Assembly: GCF_030867145.1 (NCBI RefSeq)
Contig: NC_134433.1
Location: 12,041,216 to 12,105,215, forward strand
Length of the DNA: 64,000 nt
Direction: 5' to 3'
From: Opisthocomus hoazin
Taxonomy: Eukaryota; Chordata; Aves; Opisthocomiformes; Opisthocomidae
Position 1 is the stretch's first letter. Every line of letters starts with the position of its first letter. The notes beneath the pieces were generated by a model that had not been told where the DNA came from, did not search any database, and worked only from the letters and a program-made list of their open reading frames with translations. A program made the position numbers and the translations under genes. This document shows positions 31,323 to 55,656 of the stretch, piece by piece.

Positions 31323-34300
31323 TCATGCCTGGGCCCCGGTGGCTTTCTGGATCAGGGGAATCTGCAGGAGGGGAAGAGAGAAGCTGTTAGGGCTGGAGGA
31401 GGGGGAGGCAGGGAGCTGTCTGCACTCTGTGGCTGGGCAGGGCTGGGGAAGGGGAGGCTCCCCAGGAGCCTGAAAGCTTTCAGGCAAGTCCTTCTTCCCC
31501 AAGAGCCGCAGGCATTGCCAGCTGCTGGCGCTGGGCTCACCTTTGTGAGATCCACGCCGGTGATGGCACGCACGGAGGCGGGGATCTCGGCCAGCAGACG
31601 GTTCACCTCGGATGTCGTGTTGCTGCTCTCTCCGCTGAGAATAACGATCTCATCCACTTTGGAGAGGGGAGCGGCCACTTTGGCAGCAATCTGGGGAGGC
31701 AGGGAAGGTGGGCAGGATGAGCAGAGAGCCAAAGAGCTGCTCAGCAGCCTCCTGCCCAAGCTCGTGGGGCCTTTCTGGGCTCCCCGGAGACCTGGCCCAG
31801 GCTGGGAGCTCCCGACCGCTTGTTTGGAGCAAAGCTGCTCCCTCCTCACCTCAGGCAGCGCATCCAGCACTAGGGCCAGCTGGGCAGCTTCTCCATACTT
31901 CTTGAGCGCTTCAGCTTTCAGCTTCATCCTCTCGGCCTCCGCCATCCCGATGGCCTCAATCACAAAGGCCTCTGCTTCTCCGATCTTGCGGATCTTTTCT
32001 GCCTCCGCCTGAGCAATGAGGACTTGCTTCACCCTGGAAAGGGAAACCCAGCCCTCCAGCAGCCCAGATCCCCGCAGCGTACTCAGCGCCGCTTCCCTCC
32101 CTCCGCCAGCCACGTGCCTGCCCTGCCGAGAGCCCACCTCGCTCCCACCTCACGCCAGCCCAGCGTGCAGCAGGGCTCAGGGCTGGTCCCTCTCCGTCCG
32201 GGTCACGGGCTCACTCACTTCTCGCCCTCGGCGATCTGCTGGATGCGGTAGGCTTCCGCCTCGGCCGGCTGCTTCACAGTGGCTATCAGCTCCTTCTCCA
32301 TCCGCACGATCTCCTTCTCTTCAACATCGATCTGCTTCTTGCGCTGCACCACCTCAATTTCAATTTCCTCCTGGCGAATCTTCTGCTGCTCCCGGGCGCT
32401 CTGGAGCTCGTAGGCCAGCTGGGCCTCCACAGTCTGCTCGTGGGAGAGATGAGAAGAGGGGTCGTGGCCATGACCTCCTGTGCACAGACATAAGGACCCT
32501 CGGCAGGCCCTAACACCAGACGTGGCTCCTGCTCTGGACCAAACCTCCACCCAGAGGTGACGTCCCTGTCCTCAGACCTGCACTTGCTGTCCTTCCCTGT
32601 GCACTCTTCCCACAGTACTTGATCCCAACCAGCTCTGGGTCCAGCTTAGCTCACCCTCCCCATCCTTCCACCTACTTCCAGTCCCCTCTAACTGTTGCAA
32701 GCAGGAGAGGAATCTGCTGCAAGGTGCTCACACTGTGACACAGAAATCTGGGTTCTCCATCTTCAGCTCTCCTACCACATACAGGAGGAGGAAGCTGGCA
32801 AGTCCCAGAGCTACCAATACCATCACGAACCAGCCAGGGAACGGTGGTGGGCTGTCAGATACCTCTCACCTTAATGTTGACCTCCTCAGTGAAGGCAGCT
32901 TTCTGCAACTCAAAAGCCCGTTTGGAATCTGCTATTTTGGTATCGGCCATGAACTTGACATCCAGCATTTCTTTCTTGCACTCCGCCTCCTGCAGAGAGG
33001 AAACGGAGGGCAGAGCTCCAGGGTGTGCAGCTGGAGCAAAACAGGCTGCTCCGGGGAAGCCCAGCACATCTTTGGACTCACCCGAATGCCAGCATCTCGC
33101 TCAGCTTCTGCCACCCCGATGTCTGCGTCCCTTTGGACAGCCGCAGTCTGAGTCTTTCCCAGGGAGCTCAGGTAATCCACTTTATCATAGACATCCTGGA
33201 GAGGGGAAGATAAGTCACAGCCGCTTCCAACGAGCGACTCCATCTCACTCTCTTCCTGCTGAAGCTCAGAGCAACCACTTGTGGGCTTAGGCCAGGGTCA
33301 GAACGAGCCATGTCCGCCCGCTGCCAGACACAGACGTGACAGGGAGCGGCGGGCTCTCCGGACATCTTCCCTCCGGCTCCCTGGAGGCTCGGTTATCAGT
33401 GAGCTCTCTCCACGAGCCGTGTTTACGGAGGCAGCTAACCAGGTGCTCCTCACCCAGCAGCCTGGATACAGGACACGCTGCGGCGGCTGTCATGGAAACC
33501 CCCGGAGGGCTGGGGCAGGCTGTCAGCCGGCGCCTGTCAGCCAGCTGCAGCAGAGGAGCCAGGGCCAGGCTCTGTTGTGCCGCTCCTACAGCTCGGCCGC
33601 GTGCCCTGCAAGCGCAGCACCCTGCATCTGGGCGTACCTTGATGGTAAAGCTCAGGATCTCGATACCCATGCGACCCACGTCGGGAGCTGCCACCTCCCG
33701 CACCAGCTTGGCAAACTGATCCCTGTCCTGGTAGATCTGCTCCACCGTCAGGGTACCTGCAGAGGGAAGGAAGGGGAAGCACTCTGTTTGGAGCAGGGAA
33801 CGCACAACGGCATGGGTCCAAGCCCAGCAACATCCTCTTTGCCCCTGATCTCTTCAGGTCTGAGCATAAGGGCGTAATCCTCTATCCAGACCCTGCAGTG
33901 CAGACCGACATCGCAGTCTCACAAGCACAGCCACCACACCTGTAACCCACAGGGACTCAGACATCTCTTGTTGCAGGCACTGAAAACTCACTTATCACAG
34001 CACCCAGCAACACAGCAGGAGCTGCTGTAGGGGAGGAACGATCTAAGATGCCACCTCTGCAGTCAGCAGAGGAAGAACCCGTTGCGGCCGCTGCAGTGGC
34101 AACTGGGACCAGCCAGCAGAGAAGGCAGAAAGCTACTCAGGACACCTTCAAGAGCACAAAGCCCTCCGCACCTAGGATGGAGCGCAGATGCCCCTCCAGC
34201 GTCTGAAGGACCACATTCTTCACATCCTGCACGTTCTTCCCCAAGAACTGCTCACAGGCCACAGCCAGGAGCTCCTTCTCCGTCATTATCTTCACCTAGA

Positions 34301-37300
34301 GACAGGAGACAAAACCAAAAGGACTGAAGGCACCCGTCTGAAGAGGGACAGGCACCCAACAGCAGCAGCAGCAGCAGCAGAAGCAGCAGTACCACCACCA
34401 GGCTGCCAGGCCCCCGTGCTCCCGTGGTCCCTCCAAGGGGCCATGCTGAGCTGTCCCCACGCTGAGCCAGGCCACCGCACAGCCAGCGATCCCCTGCTCA
34501 CCGCCGCAGGTGCACGCAGCAGCGTCCGGGGCAGACACTTCTCCGAAACCCAACTGCAGCTCAGCATGGAGAGGTGTTCCCTGCCGCCATCAACCCCACA
34601 GCAGCGGCCAGTGGGTGGTGAGGGGACCGAACCTGGTCCCACAGGTCCCACCTGATGAAAACTCTATCAAAGAGCTCTGAATTACCAGTTCAGTCGCTGC
34701 ACCAATACCAGACCTAGGAGGAGAGGGCTTTCTACAACTGCCCCTGGCCAAAAGCCATTTTGTTACCTTTCTCTTCCTCCTCCTTCACTAGAAATAATCT
34801 TTCTGACACAGGAAAGGCAGGGAACAAGGGAGAGTCTCAAACGCCCAAGGAGCAGCTTGGGAACAGGGGCTCCACTCGGCGTTCCCTGCAAGGAGAGATG
34901 AGACGAGATGGCCGTAGCACACTGGTTTGTCCTGCTCATGGCTGGGTGCTCCCAGCCACCCTTTATGGTGACCCCAGTGTGCTGTGGCCAGGACCCAGCT
35001 GTCCCACTCCGCATGGTCCGTCTGGCAATGATCCCTAGAGGTGGGACACAGCTGCCCTAGTGCTGCTTTCACCTCCCACAGTCAGTGCCAGACGTAAAAG
35101 TACCCCCAAGTCCAGACAAGCCAGGGTCTTAAGATGGTCCTGCTGGTCACAGGGCTGCTTTTCAAAGGTAAAGTGGTTAAAAATCCCTATGGGGTATGTT
35201 AGGCAGGGGAAATGTGTGCTCATGGAGCTCTACAGGATTCAGCTATGAGGAGCTACAGCCCACCAAGGTGACAGCTCCTGGTGGCCAGGTTCAGTCTGAG
35301 GGCTTAGGCAAAGCCTGGACACAGGGACGTCTGTGTGTCTGGAAGCACCAGACAAGGGAGCAGAGCCATACCAGCACCTTTGGGCGCCGAGCGGGTCCCA
35401 CAGCACCCTCTCATGGAGACATCTGGGCTGGGCAGTGCCTCCTGTCCCCAAGACGCCGGTGGCACCCTGTGTCCTGCCCCACGGACCATAGCTGGACCTG
35501 CTGGTACCTGCGATGCCAGCATGGTCCTGGCTCAGAGACCTCCAAAGCTTCAGCCGCTGCACAGGGGCCCTCCGAGGGTCCCAGCACACGCTCTTGATGG
35601 GTTCACGATCTACCGACCTCATCCTGCCACCTACAAGACTGCTTTTCAGGGTCTATCTGCTGACAAAAGCAACACAGCTATTTCTTGAAAGCCTGGTCTG
35701 ATAGCCCACGAATCCAAAGCGGTCCCGCAGCCCAACCTCCAGAGCAGAAGAGCAGCACCCGGCCCCCAGCACTGCCAGAGAGCGGACAACTGGGATCAGC
35801 CACCCCCTCTAAGGGGACCGGACACCGACCGCATTAGATGCGATGAGCTGACCAAGACTCAGCTGCCACAACTCTACCCCTGGTAACGTGAAGGAGCACC
35901 AACCTGGGCCGAGCCTTTTTCCTGCCTTTGCTTCTCAGGCCAGATCTCCCAGTCAAAACACCAAACAACCTCAGGCAAGCATGGCAATCCTCTTCTGCTT
36001 TCTCCCCAAGACCTCTGGGCTCCTTACGGGGCCAGGCCACCAAGGTTTCTTCTCCCTGCACCCCAGGCCAGCAGCATGCACTCTCTACAGGAGGGGGAGT
36101 TGGGAGAGCTGCTCGTGCAGCTGCACCTGGGAGCGTGAGCCCTGCACAAGGCTCATCTTGCAGCAAACAGGAGGTTTTTGCAAACATCAAACCCAATTAG
36201 ACTCACCAGTAGCATTTACAGTGTGCATCTGCCAGCAGTTTCACCTCTCTAAACATTCCCCATCCTTCTGGAGCTATGGAGAGGACAGTCAGAGCACGGA
36301 GCGGGATGTTCGTTAAGAGTCCCTGCGGTACTTAACCGGAGCAAGGAACGATTCAGCCCCTGTGCATGAAGCCGGCCTGCAACCTGCCTGCGCTGGTGAA
36401 CCCTGGATAGCCCGAGCAGGCCTGGCTACCCGCTCAGTGTGGATGTCAACCTACAAAGCAAAGGTTGCACAAAACAAAACTGAGCTGAGCGATTTGCGCT
36501 CGGCTCGTTTGCAGGATTTCAGACAGGGCGCTGCGACACTCGGTGCTTCTTCAAATGTCATTCACATCAGACAGAGAGTTCAGCTGGCAGGAAATCAGAA
36601 AGCCTCCATAAAACAATCCCATCTGGAGGATCGATACCGCCGCGCCCAGCTCCAGCCAGCTGCAATCACAGCCAGGGCTGAGCGGAGACAATCCATTTAG
36701 TTTGAGGCTCAGAAAAATGGTACAGAAGGATACGAAGCCCAGCGTGGCCCAAGGCAGCAGCATCCCAGCGCGTCCCAAGCACCCAGCCAACACAGGAAGG
36801 AGGCTACTGGTGAGTACCCATTACATCGCTCTTCGAAAAAAGAACAGCAACCTTAGGCACATTAAGTGCTTCTATTCTAATGCCAAACATTTTTAAATGT
36901 GTTTCTCTAGTAACACTTTGTTTGCTCTTTTCCTTTTTTGCACAAGCTCTTGAAAGAAAAATGTTTGCCTCAAAAGTACTTCTGGAAAATTAAGGTAACC
37001 TCTGCCATGCATGACCTCAGCTGCCTCAAGCCTGCTTTCTGCATGGTAATTCCTTGCATCTCACAACCCTAAAGCTTTAAAATTAATTGACAGTGAAAAA
37101 AATGAACCATGAGAAGAGAAAATAACATAAATGAGATCAACTGGGAGCTGCATTTTTAAGTCAAGGCACCTGGTGATCCAGTCTTCTGCTAGCACACGCC
37201 ACTCAGCCTAGACCAATTCGCAGGCAATGGAAGGATGTCCCATAACTAGGTCAAAAAGGAATGCTGGCTTCACAGAAATACCTTTTCCAAATACAGCTGG

Positions 37301-40300
37301 AAAAGCTTATAAATTTATGAAATGTGTGTGAGGGGAGACACAGGTGCATGCATTTTGCCAACCACGCAAATGCCACTGTGGTTGTGTGACACATCAGCAG
37401 CGAAATGGATCTAAAGAACTGAAAAACTGAAAACAAGGATGCTGGTTCACACCATTCGCGCCAGGACGAGCCCCGGACGCTGGCTCCCGCGCCGGTGCTC
37501 TCACACGTAGCCCCTTTCCCCAGCGGCAGCAGGGCGATGCATGACCCCGCTGCTGAGTCACGGTTGTGCCCAGCCCTTCCGCCATGCGCGACAATCCAGA
37601 AACCGCTCCTGGCTGAATTCACCTCCTCAGTTACGCACGGCACACAGCTCCTCCGCAACGTCCGTTCAGAGCAAACCAACGAACCCAGGCGGGAATCCGC
37701 TGCTCTGCTAAGCACTGGGTGAAATCTGTCAAGTGCTTGGTCTTAAAAGAGCTGCAGCAGCCAGGGTGCTCTTCCCTGGGGGGGAGCCTTTTGATGCGTG
37801 TGGGATTTTGGTCACGTCACTGCGTCACTCAGCAGCTCCCCTCGGCTCCACTGCTCACCGCAGCGAGCGCGGCAGTCACCTCTCATGCAACAACTGACCT
37901 GCACATGCCTCGGGACACGCGGTGACCACAGCCTTGCCCGTGCTCCGGGAATTGCTGTCGGTTTTATACACCCAGAATGAGCTGTCAGGAGCAATTTTCA
38001 ACCAAAGCATCCGGTTGCCTATTCGGGGAGTCAAATTCTGTCGAAAGCTAACAATATTTTCCTCCCAGCATCCTCCCCAAGGCAGGACCTGGTCACAAGG
38101 ACAGGCTGTATCAGGGCAGCAGACCTCCAAGTCTAAGAAATGCAGGTGTTGAAGCGTACTACTACAAGCAGCAAGAGCTGCTTTTCACTTATGAAGAAGG
38201 CTTGAGAGAACAAAAATTCAGTTCAAGCCAGAAACTTTACACATAAATTTCAGTGCCTGGAGGGACCAAGTTCTTTCTTTAAGCTTTAACTCGTCGTGAA
38301 GAACTACAAGGTCCATGTGCTAATAATAATAATCCAAAGCAACATAATGCTCGGTACCATCTCAGGAGCGAATGGCTCGGTCCTGCAGGGTCACACACAG
38401 CTCCGAGGGCACCGCGGTACATCAGCGTTTCACAAACAGATCAAGTCACCCCCCCCACCTCATTTGCCATGTGAACAAATGAGACACCAGAAAAAGACGA
38501 ATGATTTTGGGGAGAGGAGGAGAGGTCACAACCCCTTTCACAACACAGGACATGCTGTAGTGTTTGAACCAATGAGGACAGTGTGGTTGTGTACACGAAT
38601 GTGTTTCGGAGCAGTTGGCTTCTGTTCCTGGACAACAGTAACCTCTTAAGGGGGAAAACCAGATGTAAGTTAGAGACATGCATTCCTGAAATGATGTTTT
38701 GGAGTTACTGTACCTGTGCCACACCTGTGACAGTTAAAGCTACCCCCTCCGCCGTCTCTACGTCCTCACACCTGGGCTGTAACGTCATTATCTCTAGGGA
38801 AATCCTGCCAAAAAACGTAAAATATTTGCACTTTTCCAGGTAACACACACTCAGCTCTTCCCTTTGCATCTCCTGCCCCGGGCTACCTGCCGCACTCATC
38901 ACAGGTAATGTAAGACAGGCGCAGAATGCAGCCAAGGGACTATGTCTGTGACTGGAGACAGACAAGTCGCCTTGGACAAGAAATAGATTTCCAGATAACG
39001 CCTAAAGGCAATTTACCAGCAAAGAAAGGCTGGGAGCCAGACTGGAAATAATACTGTGACCCTTTCCTTTCCACTGGGCTAGTGAGGTGGCCAGAAGCTA
39101 GCAGCTTCGGGACCCCAAAGGGCCCTCCGTCAGAGCTCTCGCTGGCTGGTGTCACTGGTTTAAAAGCACAGCACAGACCTGGGATGCTCCCACCCGCCCA
39201 CCCAGTGCTGATGCTGCAAGAAGCAGCCCTGCCTTTGCCCTCGCTGGGTTAGCATTAACACAGACCCACCCTCTGATCCGGTTCACCTCTCCCTCTGTCC
39301 CACAGATCCCGTGACCCAAAGGCATAGAGAAGCGAGTCTCCAGCTCTTTTGGGCCATGCCTGTACAGTATCAGGCACCCAGGAACAGATCCTGCAGCTCC
39401 AGAGCTTTCTCAGTCACGCAAGTTGGGCTTGAGGTACTTTGGCCGGACCCGGCAACCTGCAGGTCATGATTTGGTAAAACAAGAGACATGCTTGGCTGTG
39501 GCAGGTTCTGCTTCAGGAAGCAAAGCCTGGCTCTCGTGTCAGCTGTAATGAGCCGGGAAGGCATTGGGAGTCAGGACAGGGAGCCACAGGGCAGAGAGCT
39601 CATGTCAGTGAACATTAGGTCAAACATCTGAACCACTAACGGGCTGCACTGGGCTGCTGCGTGCACGCTGAGTCACTCCAGCATTGGCTGGAAGTGCTGA
39701 AATGTATCTCTGCAAGTTTGTGCCTGCCTTGGCCACTGTCCTAATGAAACTGGCATGCAAATCGGGAGCTGATAAACCAGATCCCACTGTCCAGGACATG
39801 CACAGGCTTTTTTTGCCATATGTGTTCACAGCTTTAATCAGCTAGTGTGGGATTTCAGCCTTCTGAAGACCTAATCTATACTTTGAATTTCATTTCAATA
39901 CACTGCTGCTGCTTAGCTGGCAAGTCACAGGGGTGTTTGGTAATTAATGTTACGCTGGTTCATAACTGCTCACAGTGCAAACGCTAGCCCTGTACGCTGC
40001 AACTCATTCGAGGTCTCTATGCTGTACTTTCAAACGTGACAACATCCAAAATGGGCACTGTCTCCACGTGGAGGACAAAGGGCTGAGTGGAAACTCACGT
40101 CTAAAACTGCAGAGCCAGGTACAGTTGCCATTTTCCACCCCAGGTGTTCATGTTTCCTTTTGAAATGGCACAAACCCTGCCTTCCCACCTGCCCCAAATC
40201 CTGCACAGAACCCAGCCTGGCCTGCTTGCCAAAAAGCAGGTGCCCTTCTGCTCCCCACCAAGCACACAACGGAAACAGTGCTGTCGAGGAAAGGGTTACA

Positions 40301-43300
40301 GCTGGAGCGAGCGTCTGCGCTGTTATCAGAAGGAATCAGTCCAGCAATGCTGAATTTGGAATTTGCCAAGCACGCATCTGTCTGCATTACCTACAAACTG
40401 TGGAGTGCGCCCCAGGGCAAGTGCCGGAGAAGGGGAAGGAGAGGAGGGTATCGAGATTTCAGCTGTCCCATTAGAAAACCATTAGTTTTTATGTTATCCT
40501 GCTGCTGCTGCTGCTGTTGCTGCTGCTCAAAACAGAGGGATAAACAGTTAGACACGATGTTAGGAAGCTGGTGGATTATTACCTGTGCAACCCCTGTTAC
40601 GTACAGTGGGACCCCCTCCGACGTCTCAATATTCTCACAGCGACAGAGGATGGTCATAACCTCCAAAGACAGTCTGAACAGCGAGGAATAAGGGTAGGAC
40701 AGCAAATATACAAAGCAGTTATCAGAGAGTAAGACACTCATTGCAAAGGACAGACGAGACTTTCAGGTTTCCGCTTTTCCCTGTTCAGTTTGCCCTTCTC
40801 CCAGGGCTCTGTAACGCTGGGCCAGACCAGCTTCCCTCGTCGTGATGGGGAGTTTACAGCGTCCAGCTGCTCCTTTTAACGAGGCTCAACGGGCCGGGGG
40901 CTCGTCTGCACCCTGCGGCCCATAAGTCACCGCAGACGAAACCGAACCGTGTATCCCACCTGGACTGCCGTCCTGGAGTCAGCTGGAATTCTCTGCGGGA
41001 GTGATCTTCACACACAGAAAATTCCTTTTTGTAATAATTTAGATGCTTCTATGCCAACATTTAAGAGGGGCCAGAAAAATGCAAATGCCAGGGACGTGGC
41101 TATGCGTTCCTGGCTAAGGCACTGACGAGAGAAGGCGTTTCCAAGTGCTGCCCTGAGAAGCTGAATAACACCATTTGGTTCCCCCAGCGACATGTCAGAC
41201 CATGCTGCCTCTCCCACTGCTTTTATTTCTGACCCTTAAAAAGGGACAGGATTTTTTTTTTCTTTCTTTTTTTTTTTTTTTTTCACCCTAGTCCTCAAGG
41301 TTGCAGCAGGATAAGAGCCCAGCACCCTGCCAGCTCTAACCGTTCCTTTTGTTCCCAGGTTAGTGCTGCCTGGCGGGATGCCGCTGACAGCAACACAATT
41401 GCTGCTGTCTCTCTTGCTTTCAGCACTGGCAGTTCCAGAAAAGATGTCCTAATTTCGGAGGAGGAAATCTGCCTCGCTCTTCATGTTAATGCAGCAGGCT
41501 CCATCTGTGGCACAGCTTACAGTATTTGGGAAAGGCTCTGTTTTCAAAAGGAGAATTAAGCCCCATCCCATGGCATGAACCGGGGGTATAGGTTTTAAAC
41601 TAAAAGATTTGTTTAGGTGCTGGCATTCCTGAGCCCTGTTTGCTAAATAATGCCCAGACCTCTATCATATGACAGCTCACTCCTGGCAAGCAGTTCTTGG
41701 CCCTGGGCTCAGCCTTTGCTTAACTTAATAAGTCAGCCTCCCGAATACATCTGTTATCTCCTGCACATGGCAGGTCAAGGTCCTGCACTGTTCTCTGGGT
41801 TTCTCACACAAGAGGAGGAGCAGAAACCATTTGTTCCAACCAGCAGTTCCCCCAGCGAGATGCCTCACAAAAAATCAGTAACGAAGCTCATCTGGATCAA
41901 ACGCAGTTCTTAAGCATTGAGCCCACAAGCCGGGCCTTTCCTTCCCCTCCCACCTCACACGAGCATGGCTGGAGAGGCCGGGCTAAAGCAGCAGGCGTTA
42001 GCTGAGACCTCTTCATGCAGCCGGAGCACTACGGTAGGCTCTCGTAGCAATCCTGAGCCCCAGCCACCTGGGAGAGGACCTGTGAGGTGTCGTGAGTCAG
42101 TTGCCAGCAGCAGCCAGGACCCCTCCGCACAAGGCAAGGTGCCTGAGCCCCGGGCGGACAGCAGCTACGGCAGTGAACCATCTGCAGAGCGAGGGCAGCA
42201 ACATGCTCGCTTTGTCTGCTGGTGGCAACATGTGAACAGGGAAAAGAGGTGGCAAGATCAGGCAGTAAGGGTTAACTACAACCCCTGGCCATCACTCAGT
42301 GCAAAAACCCAAAAGTCACATCTTTATCCTTTTTCCCTATTGTTATTTATACAGACGGAGGAAACCTGCATTGGTGAGCATGAGGAAGGTGTTAGGAGAG
42401 TAACATTCCTACAGGTCCTAAAGACAAAGAGCTACGTTAGCAGGACAGCAGCACTATCACAGCAGGTTAGTTCAGAGACCAGCGCGGTAAGAAGCAGCAA
42501 GCAAAGTCCACGACCGAGGAAAGGGAGAGAAAGGAAATCCCGTGGTTTCAAATAGGAACACAGTCTGCTCCCAAGGTGACAGCGGTCAGCATATCTTTAG
42601 AAAACGAGACTTGAGGAGCAGGAGGGGACACTGGCCCACTGCATGGCACAAACGTGTTTGCTGCTGGGTGAGGGTTTGGGCCATACTGGGCAGAACTCAG
42701 GTCCTGTTGTGAACTCATGGATGAGCCAGCCTGGCTGCCCAGTATCTCTGTGAGAGCTTCAGCTGCGGAGCACTGCAAAGGCAGCAGCAGAGGAGAGGGG
42801 GGCTCTTGCCTTGCTCAGCACCCACTGCACCAGCACAGGAAGGAACACACTGACCAGCTAGGCTACAGCCCTCTCAGCTTGGTGGGTTTTATGTAAATAA
42901 AACACAATCAACAAGGGGGAAAAAGACCCCATCAGATTACCTTGGGTTTGAGGAGAGGTGTGGACAGAGAGGCCATTTCAAAAGTATTTCAGCTAATAGC
43001 ACGGGATTTGTTTTTTTTCTTTTTTTTGTCTTTTGCACTGTGACACCCAGCTGTCCCCATGAAAACATTCAGCACAGAACTCCCTCATCCTGCGATCTGA
43101 TTTTGCACAGCATCGTTTACAGTCAGGTAAGCCTGCAATGACAGGACTCACCTCCTGCAGGCCCTGGACAACCTCAGCCCCCACCACCCAAAGCAGAGGC
43201 CAGCCAGAAGCTGGCACTCGGAGCCCATGCTCCAAGGCACTACGCAGGGCACGCGTCGCTCCTTCCAGCTGCTCACAGTGCTGCACGCCGGGCAGCCTCC

Positions 43301-46300
43301 CTTCAAACGACCAGGAGCTGGTGACAGTGGGCTGCGTTGACACTCATCTATAGTTTCTCATATGCAGTGCCCAGTCCTGCGTTCCTAAAGATACTGCTGA
43401 CAGCTCCACTGGGATGGCTTTGCCCAACTCCTACTCCAAAACCCACAAACAGCGAGGGTCTCCTTACCTTTGGGTGTCGGTAATGCACCACCAAGCCCAG
43501 GCCCAGCCTCCATATACATACTGCTTCACGTCGGAGCCGCAGCAGCCACCTGCAGAAAGCAGAGATGTAGGGATCACACATGGGCGCTTTGCTCTCAGCC
43601 AGGGAAAATCCTGCCCCCGGACCGAGTCACAAGCAGAACAACTTCATTGCAGCAGCCTGCGGGTGCTGCAGAAAGGGCATCCTGGGGGGTCAGTGGTTTC
43701 CCCAGCCCCTCGAAGCAGGGGAAGCACCTCGGCTCGGCCGCGTTACAGCAATCAGTGCTACCAAGCCGAGCTCTGTGACATGACCCGGAAAAATCCACGC
43801 TTGCTTCCAGTGTCTGATAAGTAACAAACACAGAAAACTCTTTCCAAGATCCACAACAGCCCTGGAACACCCTTCAGTTGGCCACGACGCAGACAGCCAC
43901 CTGGGAACCCAACGCTCTTCTCACCCCCACGGGCTTCACACCACAATTTTCCATAGGCAACCCATTTTTTTGGATTTGTCTTATAAAATTGAAAAATAGT
44001 ATTTGTAATAATTCAGTATGATGAACAAAACCACAGAAAGCGACCGTATTTCAAAGGAGGATTTTATTTTAGTTTTGTTAAGCAGTTTAAACACTTCTAG
44101 CAACCAGAATCATTGTAAGTACATGCTTCAGTACCTTAATTGTGATGCACCAGCTCCCTCATGGAAACACATGTAAGAAATTCACCTCCTTCCCCTCACC
44201 CATACTGCAAACAACCCTTAAACCCACCAAAAAGCTACAAGGTCAGCGTTGGAGGAGGGGAGAACCCTTGCGCTCCCCAAAAACATCTCCTCGTTCTGGC
44301 TCATGCCAGTACTGTGGTTCCTGAGGCTTTGACGGTCCACGACAGAGCTGCGTGTGCCCAGCGTTCGGGCAGCCTCTAGAACTCCTCTGACACATTTAAG
44401 ATTTGACCCCAGTGAAGCCAGAAGACGCTGTCTGGGTTCTTACATCTTTGATTCAAGGGATAAGATGCCTGCTGCCTTTCAAGAGAACACCCTGCCAGTG
44501 ACCAGCCCTGGGTTTCATGCCTGGCATGGGAGGAGCTCTGCACCTCCCCAGCTCAGAGCTCCGGTGTCTCAGCCAGATCAAGCCAGCAGGCCCTCCCGGG
44601 TCTGTTCTCCATAATCACACTTCCTACAGCAGCACCCAAGCGCCTCAGCAAGGCAAACACGGCACCAACAGAGCAACAGACAGTTCCAGCCCTGCGGGAT
44701 GTAACTGCGCAGGCAAGACGGAGCCAGTGCAGAGGAAGAGCAGGCATGCAGGGAAAAACAGTGTGGCTGCAGCGCTGCGGGAGCTTCGCACTGCGGGAGG
44801 GGAAAGGGAGAACTAGGAAGCTGGCAGACGGCAGCCACAGAAGATGGCTCTTGCAAGAGACAATGCTTATTAAGTTTGTTGCAATAGGGCAAAATGAAGA
44901 AGCAAAGGCAGCACACATCCAGGTCAGTGTGCCGGCAGGGGCCTCTGGGCCACAGGAAGGGACTATGTGTCCCCATCCTCCTCCTTCTCCCCATCCTCAA
45001 GAGTTTGGCCATCTTCTGCTATCAGCCAGGGATACCGCCGGCTCCACCAGTTTTCACACAATGCCTTTCACAAACCAATCAGCCCCATCTGCAATTCTTC
45101 ACTCTCCGATTTCAGCAGGAAATAAACATGAATGGCAAACTGAGTTACACACTTTTCCAGGTCTCCCGCGCTCTACAGCCTACAGGAACATTCTCCCGTC
45201 ACCTCTGAGACAGCCTCTGGACACCTTCTTCCCATAGCTGGCAGGCTCTTTCAGCCAGGTAAGGAGTTACAGAAGCTGATCATACAATATCCTGCAGCAT
45301 ATTAACCGCAATGCCTTTTAACTTTTCTTGGAGGACACCAGCCCAGTTAGCTCAGCCTTTTAGCCAGGCCCTTGCTTTCCAAGAACAGGAAGGGAGGTGT
45401 TCCTGGCAGCTCCGCATGGAAAGGTATTTTATTTCACAGAGTCTATGTGGTCTTTAACGTCTATACTGAACCTCTGGTAATAGTTTCATAATAATGTTTT
45501 GAGAAAACTCTGTGCCCTAAACCCACTATTGTTACGAGATTGTGCCTCTCCACATAGATGTTTCTTTTATTCTGCAGGCAAATCAAGGAAATACCTTATT
45601 TAGTAACACACCCATGCTTGCTTCCCAGCACTGCCCAACGTTGCTGCACAGCACAGTTTACTAAGCTAGATTATATGTTAAAAAGTGTTCAAAGCATAAG
45701 AAAAATCAGGGAAAATGAAAACATTAAACAGGAGCGGGATGCCAGCTGGTTGCTTTCATGCAAGCCGGACGTCTGAGCGCAGCAGAGCTCCATCCTGGTA
45801 ACACAAGTCAGATGAGCTGAACGCTCATTTTCCATTGCAGTCCTGTAGCCTCCTTCCCAAGTCGCAGCGAGCAAGTGAAAAAGGAACCAGCAAAGCGAAA
45901 TCCTTGCAAGGCTACAGAATAAACCCTCCTGCACAATGAGATTTGGCAGAGAAATTGCCTTTCCCAGCTATAATACGCCCACTGTTCTAGCAGCCCGGGT
46001 CTCGCAGCCGCTTGGCCGTCGCTCCCACAAACACCCACCGTGCCTCTTCCGGGGCCGTGTACAGTGGCCAGGCCCACTACAAACAGAGGATTCATAGCCG
46101 GGAAGCTGCCGGCCAGCTTGGCCTCTTCCCAAACCAAGGGGTCCCATGTTCAAGTAAGAATTCCTGGGGCCAGGAGAAAGCATGTTGTCTGGGGTTTTTG
46201 GTTTTGTTTTGTTTTTTTTAGTGGAATGAGATTAATTGCTTTGGAGTTTGTAGATCAACGGAGCCCTCAGCAGATGCAGGAAGCTGCTGCCCTGGTGGAC

Positions 46301-49300: not shown

Positions 49301-52300
49301 TACTTTGTGCACCTCCCTGAAAACTCGCTGGCTCCAGCTGCGCTTGGGGAGGACTCGGTGCTGGGCCAGGCGCCTGCCAAAGCCCCCTCAGAGCTTGCAC
49401 CAAACCTCACCGGGAGGCTCCCAGCACCACCACCCTCCAGCAAAGTCGGACCCACATTCCAGAGACCATCATCGTCTCTGCAGGGCTATGTGGAGCATGC
49501 TGACCAAGCCTGAGCTCCACATTTCACGGACAGATTGGCTAACCAAGTGGAATTTCTTAGAAGGAGATTGGTGTTGCTCAACAGGGGAAGGATGCAAGTG
49601 CCAGTGGGAATGCTGACCCGTGCCCGGGAAGCAGCTTCCCAAATAAGGCTACGAAGCTCCCGCACACACAGACGTTCCCAAGGCACAGCCAGCTGCTCCT
49701 TGAGCATGGAGGAACTCAAGCGTCTCACAAGAAAGTGAAAAGAAAGAACATCACTCCTCAGAAAAAAACCCACATGCCGGGGAGGCACGTGACCAAACTT
49801 CCTTCAGAAGAGGCACAGGCTAAATTTACAATAACGAAAACTTTCAATCAGCTTCATGATTTGAAGGTGCCTTTCTGCAAAGTGAAGTCTTTTCAAATAA
49901 CAATTGTATGACAATTCAAGACTGCAAGCCCAAACTTGTTTTTAATACTATTTGCTGTTGGTTTATTGTTCCCTTCCCCCTCATTCCTCAAATCCAACCT
50001 AATATCATGCAAGTAAATGCTGGCTGCTGAGGTCCTCTCTGCTTTTTCCTGCAGAGACACGGCTCAAGTTCCTGGAACTACAACTGCTTGTAGTGACATG
50101 CCTCCCACTAATGCCCCGGCATTCACTCTGCACGTCATTGTGGAGGAGCTGCAGAGCTGTTGAGGGGTTCTGCAGAGCTCCCACCACCTCTCGGGCTGCC
50201 CCTCAAGCTCAGGGATGGTGCTTTCATCAGACAGCAAGCGTTCGCAGACCACGTTGGGCAGCGACAGTGGAAAGCCATGTCTAGTGGCAGCACTGAACCC
50301 AGTTCTGACTCGTGGCGTGACTGCGCTCCCTTCCCAGCACACGGCTGTACACTGAGGAGTGTCCTCGGCTCGCCGCTCCCGGCTGTGGGAAAGCTAAGGC
50401 TTGGAGCTGCAAGCAGATGCCACAAATTCCTGCTGGCTCATCCTGCAAGCCGTGTTTTGCAAACTTCAGAGCTGAACAGAAGCGAAACCAAACTTTTAAG
50501 ACTGAAGGGCATTCCGGCAAACCTGGAGCACGGCTTCCCGATTTCTCCCGTCGGATGTGGCATTTCACCAAGGGATGCTGATTTTGACAGGGGTCTCTTC
50601 GGAGGGAAGCGCAGCATCAGCTCTAGATCCCAGCTGGGAACTGAGAGATCTGCAGAAGACCAGGAAAGCTGCAAGAAATACTGCTGCTCCAGGCAGCTGG
50701 TGGGTGCGGTTTATACCTCCTTAGAAGCAGCCGACACAGAATTGCGGCCTGCTTCTGGGATCTCCTCAGTAATTCCCTTAAGGTCTGTTATCCAAGAGCG
50801 ATGAAGTGATAACACACCAGCCAGAAGCAAGTGCCACAGCCCACTGGAGTCTTTGGCTCCAAAAACGTAACAACACTGTTTCACACGCATGGCAGAGCTG
50901 CGATCGTAACACATCCTTGAAGTTCACATGCATTTTCTTCCAGGTGAGTTTAGGTCTGAGCGTCACAGCGCCTGCCGCAAAACTAGTCCAGTATTGACAG
51001 AAAGGACGTAACATGACCGAGGACACACGAAGTGACCAACACCTGTATCTAACCTGGTCATTACCCTGCACTTGGCCCCAGCCTGTCACACAGGAGCGGA
51101 GTATCCAGCCCTTACAGCAAGCCATTACATCAGCTAATGGTAATTAAGTCCTGTCCGCATGCAGCCTGGCCTATGCCAAAGTGCCCTCCGGAGCTTCGGC
51201 AGAGCGCTGGAGCAGCCACAGGTTGAATCAGACGCAGGGGATTTCACTGCTGGTTTATTTAACTCTCAGCAACCAGCTCACTTGATGAGAACACTACAAA
51301 TACCTGATGGGCCTGAACCGTGTCCAGTGCCACCGCGGCGGGAGGCCCAGCGACGTGATGGTAACGAAAGAGCCGTAGGATACGATGGATGAGAAGGGCA
51401 CTGCAGGGACAGGCCCATGACGCCCTGCCCCAGCGGGACGCTGGCACCCAGCTGCTCCCTCCCCAGCAAAGCCAACCTGCCCCCAGCAGCAGGGCGGCCT
51501 CTCGGCAGCGCCAGCCAAAGGCTGCTGGCGGCGGCCCAGAGCCCGGCAGCCTTGCCGGTGCCGCTGTCTGACATCACCCCAGAGCAGCAGCACCGGGGTG
51601 GGCCACTGGCGCTGCCAGCTTGCTCGCCCACCCCTCCCCACGCCGCGGGGACCCCAGCCCCGAGCGCAGGGGTGCAGGGGCACTGAGCTGCCTGCGCCCC
51701 AGGGCATCGCCTGGCATGGCCGGCCCCAGCGCCCGCCCGCAGCAGGGCACCCCCCGGGTGATGCTGCAAGGTCCCCCCGTGATGGGGACCACCCCGACAT
51801 CCCAGTGCTCCTTCAGGGGATCCATCCCCCCCCCCCCCAAATCACAGGGCACCCTAGAGCAGACACCCCCAAATACCTCCTCCAGATCCCACCCCCCCAG
51901 GCGGGGCCTCCCACTACCCACCAGCTCCCAGGGTCCCCCCAAGGCAGGGAGCCTCCCCAGTACCCCCCATGACAGGGACCACCCCCTCCCAGCATCCTCC
52001 AGTGCCCTCCATGACAGGGAGCCCCCCACCCAGCATCTCCTAGTGCCCCTCTATGACAGGGACCCCCCCCCCCCCCCCAGAATACCCCAGTGCCCACCAT
52101 GACAGTGAATCCCCTCAACGAGCATCCCCCAGTGAACCCCCATGACAGGGACCCCCCCCACCCAACACCGCCCATTGCCCCTCCATAACAGGACCCCCTC
52201 CAGCACCCTCCAGGTGCTCCCCCATGACAGAGACACCCCCCTCCCCCAGCACCCCCACATCGCAGGGCCCCACCTCAGTGCCCCAAAGCCTCCTCAGGAC

Positions 52301-52507
52301 AGGGACATCCCCCCCCCCCCCCCAACACCACACCCCACCCCACCCCACGACCGGGACCCCTCCAACCCGAGGACCCCCTCACAGCCAGGACCCCCCCTTC
52401 CCGCCGGGGTCCCTCCCCGCAGCCCCCACCCCACAGACCCCTTCCCCCTCAGCCCTACCTGACACCACCAGCGCCTCGTTGGGCCCCACCGTGTGGCAGT
52501 TGCCCAT
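31323..52507 (-). CDS. FLOT2: FLOT2, flotillin-2 (reggie-1)
   Basis: Eleven coding exons: 52507-52459, 43549-43468, exon 3 as 40673-40583 or 38804-38714, then 34295-34172, 33756-33638, 33195-33082, 32989-32870, 32433-32219, 32033-31850, 31690-31541, 31361-31323. Either exon 3 gives 428 aa, the human length. The N-terminus [18 protein letters not shown] carries the myristoylation Gly2 and palmitoylation Cys4, Cys19 and Cys20. An SPFH/PHB domain follows (to about residue 180), then the long Glu/Ala-rich flotillin coiled coil with repeated EAEA motifs (about 190-360) and the C-terminus [12 protein letters not shown]. Flotillin-2 hetero-oligomerises with flotillin-1 on the inner face of plasma-membrane and endosomal microdomains. 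Intron 1 is 8.9 kb. The start codon lies only 326 bp downstream of the DHRS13 stop, on the same strand. Confidence 0.97.
34360..34389. repeat. CAG microsatellite in FLOT2 intron
   Basis: About nine AGC/CAG units with one AAG interruption, in the intron between exon 4 and the exon-3 pair, 65 bp upstream of exon 4 on the transcribed strand. Confidence 0.9.
34400..38700. other. FLOT2: FLOT2 intron upstream of exon 4
   Basis: A 4.4 kb intron with no recognised gene or transposon. An NF-E2/MARE-type TGCTGAGTCA lies at 37,551-37,560. Confidence 0.6.
38714..38804 (-). CDS. FLOT2: FLOT2 alternative exon 3 (downstream copy, LQPRC form)
   Basis: 91 nt, entered in phase 2 and left in phase 0. The acceptor TTTTTTGGCAG and the donor CACAG/GTACAG are intact. 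It encodes [12 protein letters not shown]...[16 protein letters not shown], matching the human canonical flotillin-2 sequence as I recall it. It encodes part of the SPFH domain (about residues 44-74). Its partner exon lies 1.78 kb upstream in the transcript. Using both would add 91 nt twice and break the frame. Confidence 0.93.
40499..40528. repeat. CTG microsatellite
   Basis: About ten CTG units with one TTG interruption, 55 bp downstream (transcript sense) of the upstream alternative exon 3 donor. CUG/CAG tracts this close to a donor can influence splice choice; that is speculation here. Confidence 0.9.
40583..40673 (-). CDS. FLOT2: FLOT2 alternative exon 3 (upstream copy, ILCRC form)
   Basis: 91 nt with the same phases as its partner. 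The acceptor is TTCCTCGCTGTTCAG and the donor CACAG/GTAATA. It encodes [12 protein letters not shown]...[16 protein letters not shown]. 21 of 31 residues equal those of the other copy, with changes concentrated in the middle (ILC for LQP, NI for DV, SEGVPLY for AEGVALT). The frame is fully open and conserved residues are kept, so this is a functional duplicate exon rather than a decayed one. I recall fish flotillin-2 carrying a similar ILCRC version. Confidence 0.9.
43560..47770. other. FLOT2: FLOT2 intron 1, left part
   Basis: No recognisable gene, structured RNA or transposon. There are short simple-sequence tracts, for example a T-rich stretch near 46,195-46,220. Confidence 0.5.
47780..49080 (-). 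mobile_element. Decayed CR1 LINE fragment (reverse transcriptase region)
   Basis: Broken minus-strand frames retain CR1 ORF2 landmarks: [18 protein letters not shown] near 48,830 (like the PVSLTSVPGK block), FADGTELG near 48,120 (like FADDTKLG) and [14 protein letters not shown] near 48,010. The order is correct for one minus-strand insertion with internal deletions. Several frame breaks and stops make it non-functional. It lies in FLOT2 intron 1 in sense orientation. Confidence 0.75.
49100..51750. other. FLOT2: FLOT2 intron 1, right part
   Basis: No gene or RNA recognised. GC content rises towards the promoter. Open frames here are short and unlike known proteins. Confidence 0.5.
51960..52345. 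repeat. About 60 bp minisatellite in FLOT2 intron 1
   Basis: Six to seven imperfect units built on catgacagggaccccccc...cagcatcccccagtgcc, with long C-runs (up to 15). On the transcribed strand this is G-rich with many GGGG runs, so the nascent RNA and non-template DNA could form G-quadruplexes. It begins only about 110 bp after the exon 1 donor. Confidence 0.85.
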
Positions 52508-52838: not shown

Positions 52839-55656
52839 GTTCGAAACCGTGGGGGGCTGGCGAGGGGCTCCCCCCGGCCCCCCCGAGCCCCACCAGCCTC
52901 TCGCTGGCCTCCCAGAGCACCCGCGCCAGCCGGTCGTCGCGGCCTGGCGGCCATGGCTCCTGCAGGCGGCAGTCGGCGAAGTAGCGGCCGCTGAAGCGCT
53001 CGAGGCCCTCGGCCGTGGCACAGTGCAGGGGGGTCTGGGCGCCCTCGGATGCATCGAGGAAGAAGAGCCAGGCCAGGGGCAGGAAGAGCGGCTTCAGCCA
53101 GAGCGGCATGTGGCGGAAGAGCTGCGTGTTGACGAACCCTGCAGCGAGGGGAAGCAGCCATGTTGCAGCCCGGCTCCCGGCAGGGAAGGGCCCAGGTGGG
53201 AGCCAGTCGCTCTGCTGCAAGGAACAGACGTGGCTGCGCCAGGGCGGCCTTTGCACGGGCAGCGCTGCTGTGGCCTTCCCCGGGGGTGCTGCCCGCACCC
53301 ACTCAGGCCTTGCTAGGCCGGTGGCGTGTGGGGTAACGGTGCACGGTGCTCCGTGCAGGAGGTACACTCTGGGCAAGGACACGCCGTGCAGAGGGATGCT
53401 CCGTGCAAAGGGAGACACCATGCGAGGGGATGCTTCTACGAGGAAAGGTTGAGGGAGCTGGACTTGTTCAGCCTGAAGAAGAGAAGGCTGAGAGAAATGC
53501 TGATAAATATCTCAAGAGTGGGTGTCAGGAGGACGGGGCCAGACTCTGTTCAGTGGTGCCCAGCAACAGGACAAGGGGCAACGGGCACAAACTGAAGCAG
53601 AGGAAGTTCCAGCTGAACATGAGGAAGAACTTCTTCCCTCTGAGGGTGACAGAGCCCTGGAACAGGCTGCCCAGGGAGGTTGTGGAGTCTCCTTCTCTGG
53701 AGATATTGAAGACCTGACTGGACAAGGTCCTGTGCAGCCTGCTCTGGGTGACCCTGCTTCGGCAGGGGGTTGGGCTGGGTGACCCACAGAGGTCCCTTCT
53801 GACCCCGACGATGCTGTGATTCTGTGAATTCGTGCAAAGGCTGCACCGTGCACAAAAAGCACACAGTGTAAAGGCAGCTCACACACTGCATGACAAGGGA
53901 CACCCTGTGCAAAGAACACCCCCCACAAACGCCAACAACAAGCCCTCCCCGTCCCACCATCCCCAGCTCTGGGCCGCAGAGCCGGGTCCCTACCTGGGTG
54001 CGCGGCGTAGCACGTCACCTGGGTGCCCTGCAGACGTGTGGCCAGCTCCCGGGCGTGCAGCACGTTGGCCAGCTTGCTGTCGCAATAGTCCTGGAAGGTG
54101 GAGAGCAGCCCAGGGGGCGGCCGGCCCAGGGCATCGGGGCGCAGGCGGCCAGCGCGGTGGGCGCTGGAGGCGACGATGACCACGCGGCTGGGCGCGCAGC
54201 TCTGCAGCCGCTCCAGCAGCAGCTGGGTGAGCAGGAAATGGCCCAGGTGGTTCACCTGGAAGGGGAGGCTGAAGCCGTCCTCCGTCGTGCCCCCGGCGCT
54301 CACCCCTGCAGAGGAGGCAATGGCAGCCCAGGGTGGGTGTCGCGGGGGTGCAGGGGGTGTCGGGGAGGCGGGGGGTCCCGGCGCTCACCGGCGTTGTTGA
54401 TGAGGAGGTGCAGGTGGGGCTCCTGGCGCAGGAAGGCGCTGGCGAAGGCTCGCACCGAGCGCAGGCTGGCCAGGTCCAGCTGCATGAACCGCACCTCGGC
54501 GTTCCCCGACTCCTGCGGGCAGAGCGCAGCCTGGGGTGGGGGGCACCCTGCCCGGGGCGGGGGGTGGGGGGGCCTGTGGGGCTTGGGAGTGTCCCATGGG
54601 GGTGCCCCAAGGGTGCCCAGGGGCGTATCACAGGGGTCCCTCCTGCAGGTGCTCAGGGGATGTCCTGGGGGTCTCCCAAGTGTGCCCACGGGGGTGCCCA
54701 TGCAATGTCCAGGGGTGTCCCATGAGGTGCCTGGGGGTAGATCATGGGGGTCTCCCATGGGAGTGCTTGGGGGGTGTCCTGGGGGTGTCTGGGGATTTCC
54801 CAAGTGTGTCCTGGGGGTGCCCATGTGATGCTCAGGGGTGTCCCATGGGTGCCCCTGGGGTGCTGGGAGGGGTGTCTAGAGGTGTCCCAAGGCTGTCCAG
54901 GGGCACATCATGGGGGTAACCTGGGGTGCCTGGGGGTCTCCCAAGTGTGCCCAGGGGGGTGTCCTGGGGGTGCCTATGCGATGCCCAGGGGTGTCTGTGG
55001 GGATGTCCCATAGGGTGCATCATGGCAGTCTCCCACGGGGGTGTCCTGGGGGTAACCTGGGGGTGCCTGGGGGTCTCCCAAGTGTGCCCACCGGGGTGTC
55101 CTGGGGGTGCCCATGCAATGCCCAGGGGTGTCTTGGGGGTGCCTGGGGGTAGATCATGGGGGTCTCCCATGGGAGTGCTTGGGGGGTACCCTGGGGGTGC
55201 CTGGGGGTCTCCCATGTGTGCCCAGGGGGGTGTCCCATGGGGTGCACCACGGCGGTCTCCCATGGGGGTGTCCTTGGGGGTCTCCCAAGCGTGCCCAGGG
55301 GGGCCCCGGGCCGCGGCTCTCACCGTGCGGATGCGGCGGGCGGCGGCCTCCCCCCGCGCGGCGCTGCGGGCCGCCAGGACGACGCGGGCCCCGCTGCGGG
55401 CCAGCTCCAGCGCCGCGGCCGCCCCGATGCCGCCGCTTCCCCCTGTGGGACGGAACGGAACGGAGCGGCTGAGCGCGGGTGCCCGCGCGCCTCACCGGGG
55501 CCGCGCGCGGGCGCGCCCCCGCCGCTCACCGGTGACGATGGCGGTGCGGCCGCGGAGCGCGCGGCGGGGGCGGGGCGGCGGCGCGCGGCGCAGCCCGTGG
55601 CGCAGCAGCGTGTAGAGCGCCAGCAGCAGCCCCGCGCCCAGCAGCGCCCACCCCAT
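52834..55656 (-). CDS. DHRS13: DHRS13, membrane-anchored short-chain dehydrogenase/reductase
   Basis: Five coding exons in phase: 55656-55530, 55442-55324, 54512-54389, 54305-53994, 53138-52834; 328 aa (human 377). The N-terminal hydrophobic segment [18 protein letters not shown] is a likely signal anchor. The Rossmann-fold cofactor motif TGGSGGIG spans 42-49, NNAG 121-124, the catalytic Ser is in VASSAH (168-173), and YCDSK (197-201) supplies the Tyr and Lys. The full SDR catalytic set is therefore present, which suggests an NAD(P)-dependent oxidoreductase related to retinol dehydrogenases; the substrate is not known from sequence. I preferred the ATG at 55,656 over one nine codons upstream because it matches the human N-terminus ([12 protein letters not shown]). 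The acidic Ser/Pro-rich tail that follows the SDR domain in human is missing: the protein stops soon after [12 protein letters not shown]. Confidence 0.94.
53431..53829 (+). mobile_element. CR1 LINE 3' end
   Basis: A typical truncated CR1 insertion of about 400 bp. It contains the well-known gaggaagaacttcttccct block and the ccctggaacaggctgccca block, and ends in the CR1 terminal octamer pattern (tgtgattctgtga). It lies in DHRS13 intron 4 in antisense orientation. It is moderately diverged and has no coding capacity. Confidence 0.95.
54580..55305. repeat. GTGCC/GGGGGT minisatellite in DHRS13 intron 2
   Basis: About 720 bp of short units (gtcctgggggt, gcccatgcaatg, ctgggggtctcccaagtgtgcc) organised into a higher-order repeat of about 135-140 bp. 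The block ggtctcccaagtgtgccca recurs near 54,674, 54,936, 55,072, 55,208 (variant) and 55,277. It fills nearly the whole intron between exons 2 and 3. Confidence 0.9.

Follow-up and report, generated by a model that had tools for sequence, protein, structure and literature searches.

The window analysed here is a 64-kb stretch of Opisthocomus hoazin DNA (64,000 nucleotides, contig NC_134433.1, positions 12,041,216 to 12,105,215, assembly GCF_030867145.1), and it carries the coding exons of FLOT2 on its minus strand. Two versions of the third coding exon, an upstream exon 3a and a downstream exon 3b, stand in tandem in this gene. Very probably, the third exon of FLOT2 was duplicated in tandem in ancient times, and birds and mammals have since retained both copies as alternative coding exons. 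In the simplest reading of the sequences, both exons appear to predate the bird–mammal split and to have hardly changed since. Each FLOT2 pre-mRNA would use either 3a or 3b, giving two proteins of 428 amino acids that would differ at 10 residues within positions 45–68 of the SPFH (Band 7) domain. The choice of exon would be made by trans-acting splicing factors, and mRNAs with a wrong exon combination would be removed by decay. The two forms may differ subtly in function, as 3a is more hydrophobic and has an extra, potentially lipidated Cys54. The exon pair looks to be of a known kind, with its two versions already in public Flotillin-2 chains, and so largely known rather than new.

The exon pair and its counterparts in Flotillin-2 chains

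Exons 3a and 3b have the same length of 91 nt and are identical at 57 of the 91 nucleotides and 21 of the 31 encoded residues. Their phases are equal: each completes an Arg codon started in exon 2 and ends at the end of a codon. Both have an AG acceptor and a GT donor. By eye, the splice sites are intact, not strong; G at +5 is absent in both donors (GTAATA and GTACAG), and the pyrimidine tract of 3b is short. The sequence-only reading of this DNA had described two intact tandem 91-nt exons, with the same residue identity and equal phases, encoding alternative segments of the FLOT2 SPFH domain. This description was confirmed by the coordinates, the GT-AG sites, the open frames, the 1,778-nt intron between the exons, the alignment and the spliced frames; the Band_7 match at residues 6–187 and the matches in the PDB supported the domain. 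Its statement that acceptors and donors were sound held for the GT-AG dinucleotides, which are intact in both exons, and is qualified by the +5 position and the pyrimidine tract of 3b.

The relationship between the two exons was investigated by sequence search. Within the window, each exon-3 peptide found the other copy by tblastn with an E value of 9e-11 or 5e-11, and the next match had an E value of 0.46 or 0.77. Because of this gap, the homology of 3a and 3b is far above chance. The 30-residue 3a peptide gave two matches at E <= 0.001 in the bird's own genome (1.48 Gb, 415 contigs; two candidates, both scored), and these were 3a and 3b. The exons matched each other in a nucleotide search at E 2e-5; in the 600 nt of sequence flanking them to either side, no match was better than E 1.1. 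The differences at the first, second and third codon positions were 12, 3 and 18 of 30, respectively; NG86 dN was 0.25, and dS was not computable. The lack of similarity in the flanks and the distribution of differences over codon positions suggested that the duplication is old and that its coding part has been under constraint.

Counterparts of both versions were found in Flotillin-2 chains of the PDB. Chains 9bq2_A and 9l3g_a, both Flotillin-2, differ at 10 of 402 positions and are otherwise identical. The differing positions (45, 49, 52, 53, 54, 58, 59, 62, 66, and 68) all lie in the exon-3 segment. Residues 45–74 of Flotillin-2 therefore exist in two versions, one in 9bq2_A and the other in 9l3g_a and 1win_A, which correspond to exons 3a and 3b. 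The 3a peptide was identical to Flotillin-2 of 9bq2 at 29 of 30 residues in the PDB sequence search and at 30 of 31 over the full segment, and the 3b peptide was identical to 9l3g_a and 1win_A at all 31 residues. The two versions share 21 of 31 residues in the bird and likewise between the PDB chains. The pair of letters in the bird is the same as that in the PDB at nine of the ten positions; the exception is position 68, with Tyr in bird 3a and Phe in 9bq2_A. Exons 3a and 3b thus diverge far more from each other than each does from its PDB counterpart. The earlier suggestion that the duplication may be ancient is supported by these counterparts. Outside the segment, bird FLOT2 agreed with PDB Flotillin-2 at 41/44 (residues 1–44), 117/119 (75–193), and 177/209 positions (194–402), with the differences mainly beyond residue 193. 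Presumably, mammalian FLOT2 database entries list both forms.

The final model described in a passage of PMC11260169 comprises Flotillin-1 1–422 and Flotillin-2 1–402. Because these chain lengths equal those of the entry, PMC11260169 was taken to be the paper of 9bq2. According to one of its passages, the study worked with HEK293 cells into which no exogenous gene had been brought; therefore, 9bq2 should be human.

Several points weigh against a pair shared by birds and mammals. Among the three PDB counterparts, a mammalian origin was argued for 9bq2 only, with 1win taken to be mouse. That the two PDB versions are tandem exons of one gene was inferred from the identity of the chains outside the segment. 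Beyond birds, the support for an orthologous pair is at the peptide level only, from the presence of both versions in PDB Flotillin-2 chains. The model-building passage of PMC11260169 names SPFH1 as an exception, and the letters of 9bq2 in SPFH1 may have been taken from a sequence record and not read from the map. The use of both exons in O. hoazin is itself inferred from the gene sequence.

Flotillin-1 (9l3g_A), the product of a separate gene, has a homologous SPFH segment that is identical to 3a at 14 of 31 residues and to 3b at 16 of 31. Flotillin-1 was tried as an outgroup for the ancestral form of the exon and rejected, as the BLOSUM62 sum was 75 for both 3a and 3b.

Reading frame, splicing and alternative explanations

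The effect of exon combination on the reading frame was determined by in-silico splicing. With either 3a or 3b, a FLOT2 of 428 residues with a single terminal stop was obtained. With 3a and 3b joined, the frame ended after 86 codons at a stop within 3b, 1,078 nt before the last exon junction; skipping both gave a stop at codon 45, 1,022 nt before that junction. At these distances from the last exon junction, mRNAs with both exons or neither would be expected to undergo decay. The frame renders 3a and 3b exclusive in full-length protein products. The frame alone does not force exclusive splicing. Exclusive splicing is not forced by the arrangement of the exons either, because they are spaced 1,778 nt apart, both have GT-AG sites, and the AG-free zones before their acceptors are local. 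These zones cover approximately 61 nt before 3a (back to about −65) and 24 nt before 3b (back to about −28), and the branch points should accordingly be local. Steric exclusion and exclusion by splice type were considered and rejected on the spacing, the AG-free zones and the GT-AG type of both exons. The sequence-only reading was thus right that including or skipping both exons shifts the frame, and its forced mutual exclusivity is valid in the sense that double and null products are non-productive, not in the sense that the spliceosome is bound to choose. In passages of a human catalogue of such exons (PMC5740500), steric interference was possible in 57 of 629 clusters, and a U2/U12 mismatch was present in five.

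No splicing-factor motif near 3a or 3b stood out given the number of tests (seven patterns in four regions). TGCATG occurs 31 nt downstream of the 3b donor and was rejected, as the fraction of background windows that also contained it was 0.187 (678 overlapping windows). Four copies of TCAT are present in the 250 nt that follow 3b; their window fraction of 0.024 was not notable over that number of patterns and regions. A first scan with nine motifs in six regions gave nothing firmer. In an ageing study of the mouse hippocampus, 12 genes had two or more splice events in both of its data sets, and a passage of PMC10135431 cites Flot2 as one example of them.

The alternative with the best standing, unlikely as it is, treats 3a and 3b as largely independent cassette exons, whose frequent joined or skipped mRNAs would lower FLOT2 output via nonsense-mediated decay. 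The lack of a steric or splice-type barrier and the early stops of both double and null products are consistent with this. According to passages of PMC5740500, 377 human clusters have lengths not divisible by three, and joined reads were present for 83 of them; most of the 377 had no joining reads, which argues in the opposite direction. In passages of PMC9205547, FLOT2 is entered under ES for samples of human sepsis, which could also agree with cassette use if the exon concerned is 3a or 3b. However, pure control of output leaves the near-identical conservation of two different peptides unexplained. Such control by decay could also operate alongside a choice between the exons.

It is improbable that one exon is constitutive and that the other, a relic or seldom used, has survived by chance. 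The missing G at +5 of both donors and the short pyrimidine tract of 3b would suit a weakened copy, whereas the presence in both copies of an open frame, GT-AG sites and the same phases would not. Moreover, 3a differs from its PDB counterpart at one of 31 residues and 3b at none, and a relic would not stay so over the bird–mammal distance. A recent duplication or assembly artefact in O. hoazin can be practically dismissed, given the 57/91 nucleotide identity, the dissimilar flanks and the same two versions in PDB Flotillin-2 chains.

Two alternative coding exons are also the arrangement of known human pairs. Tandem homologous exon pairs in human (PMC5740500, PMC4465641, PMC9741552) are neighbouring and equal in length and phase, like FLOT2 3a and 3b. 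In passages of PMC5740500, joining would shift the frame in most clusters, and the majority of the exons that were mapped fall within folded domains; the pairs detected by proteomics are old according to a passage of PMC4465641. For FLOT2 3a and 3b, mutual exclusivity in splicing is proposed from the gene sequence. None of the three papers mentions FLOT2 in its main text. No paper on the FLOT2 exon pair was found among the matches listed, with most subscription papers and supplementary tables outside the scope, and queries with the peptide strings returned 0 papers. The queried terms did not occur in PMC9741552, PMC7954323, PMC11775717, PMC4290089, or PMC5470226, and the passages of PMC10940349, PMC11665568, and PMC12155273 contained nothing relevant to the exon pair.

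Possible functional difference and the status of FLOT1

Exon 3a has cysteines at positions 54 and 56, and exon 3b has one at 56 only. The summed hydropathy over the 31 residues was 12.3 for 3a and 7.5 for 3b. In passages of PMC11260169, the SPFH1 domains are placed in one membrane leaflet, and the face concerned is noted to bear cysteines as well as hydrophobic residues. A passage of PMC3215287 gives Gly2 as the myristoylation site of Flotillin-2 and Cys4, 19 and 20 as its palmitoylation sites. An extra lipidation site or a tighter membrane contact in 3a-type FLOT2 would be no more than a reasonable guess from the sequence. That both versions are so closely conserved suggests a useful functional difference. 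No test of such a difference was found in the literature searched.

The exon-3 version of Flotillin-2 is not the same in two solved structures of the flotillin complex, and the main text of PMC11260169 makes no use of the word isoform. Mutants, antibodies and models of flotillin-2 should specify the exon 3 used, because the SPFH domain differs by 10 residues and one cysteine between the two.

In human cells, the alternating subunits of the cage are supplied by FLOT1 and FLOT2. A switch between 3a and 3b might alter the hold of the cage on the membrane, through the lipidatable Cys54 and the more hydrophobic SPFH strand of 3a, and without FLOT1 in this bird the two FLOT2 forms might serve as the alternating subunits; we give this proposal very little credence. 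FLOT1 was not found in the 1.48-Gb assembly: a Flotillin-1 query (letters of 9l3g_A) gave four matches at E <= 0.001 among 11 scored candidates, and all four were FLOT2 exons 4, 6, 8 and 9 of the window. PF05301, used as a control for a neighbour of FLOT1, had 0 matches in the own genome, but it also had none in any of 14 control genomes and was uninformative. PF15975 had 0 matches in the own genome despite the presence of FLOT2 there and was found in 5 of the 14 controls, so it was uninformative on FLOT1. In birds, genes located on small, GC-rich chromosomes frequently fail to appear in assemblies. FLOT1 appears to be absent or unassembled, and since such genes are often unassembled and the control searches were uninformative, this is not evidence of its loss.

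FLOT2 gene model in the window

Each FLOT2 product is encoded by 11 coding exons (Table 1). The 3b form scored 822.6 bits to 9l3g_a (Flotillin-2) and 376.4 bits to 9l3g_A (Flotillin-1) in the PDB sequence search, which identified the gene as FLOT2. Both isoforms exceeded the curated cut-offs for PF01145 (Band_7/SPFH), at the residues given above, and for PF15975 (Flot) at residues 313–388. The Band_7 scores of the two isoforms were nearly equal (84.7 and 85.5 bits).

Table 1. Coding exons of FLOT2 and the intron between exons 3a and 3b, in window positions
Feature	Position	Strand	Basis
Exon 1, coding part from ATG	52459..52507	-	aligns with start of 9l3g_a
Exon 2, common upstream neighbour of 3a and 3b	43468..43549	-	spliced frame
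Exon 3a, upstream alternative, 91 nt	40583..40673	-	30/31 to PDB 9bq2_A
3a–3b intron, 1,778 nt, GT-AG	38805..40582	-	
Exon 3b, downstream alternative, 91 nt	38714..38804	-	31/31 to 9l3g_a and 1win_A
Exon 4, common downstream neighbour	34172..34295	-	spliced frame
Exon 5	33638..33756	-	spliced frame
Exon 6	33082..33195	-	spliced frame
Exon 7	32870..32989	-	spliced frame
Exon 8	32219..32433	-	spliced frame
Exon 9	31850..32033	-	spliced frame
Exon 10	31541..31690	-	spliced frame
Exon 11, coding part including stop codon	31323..31361	-	spliced frame

Upstream of the gene, one of seven peptides scanned gave an adh_short match of 28 bits (cut-off 26.6) at 54832–55488 on the minus strand. Human FLOT2 is adjoined by DHRS13, a short-chain dehydrogenase, according to a passage of PMC3445523, and the frame at 54832–55488 is perhaps this neighbour.

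Repeats were observed in the introns. A CTG/CAG triplet run of approximately 10 copies lies at 40499–40527, some 55 nt past exon 3a. A comparable run, at 34360–34389, precedes exon 4 by about 65 nt. Intron 1 contains a minisatellite at 51955–52245, with approximately seven copies of a 42-base unit.

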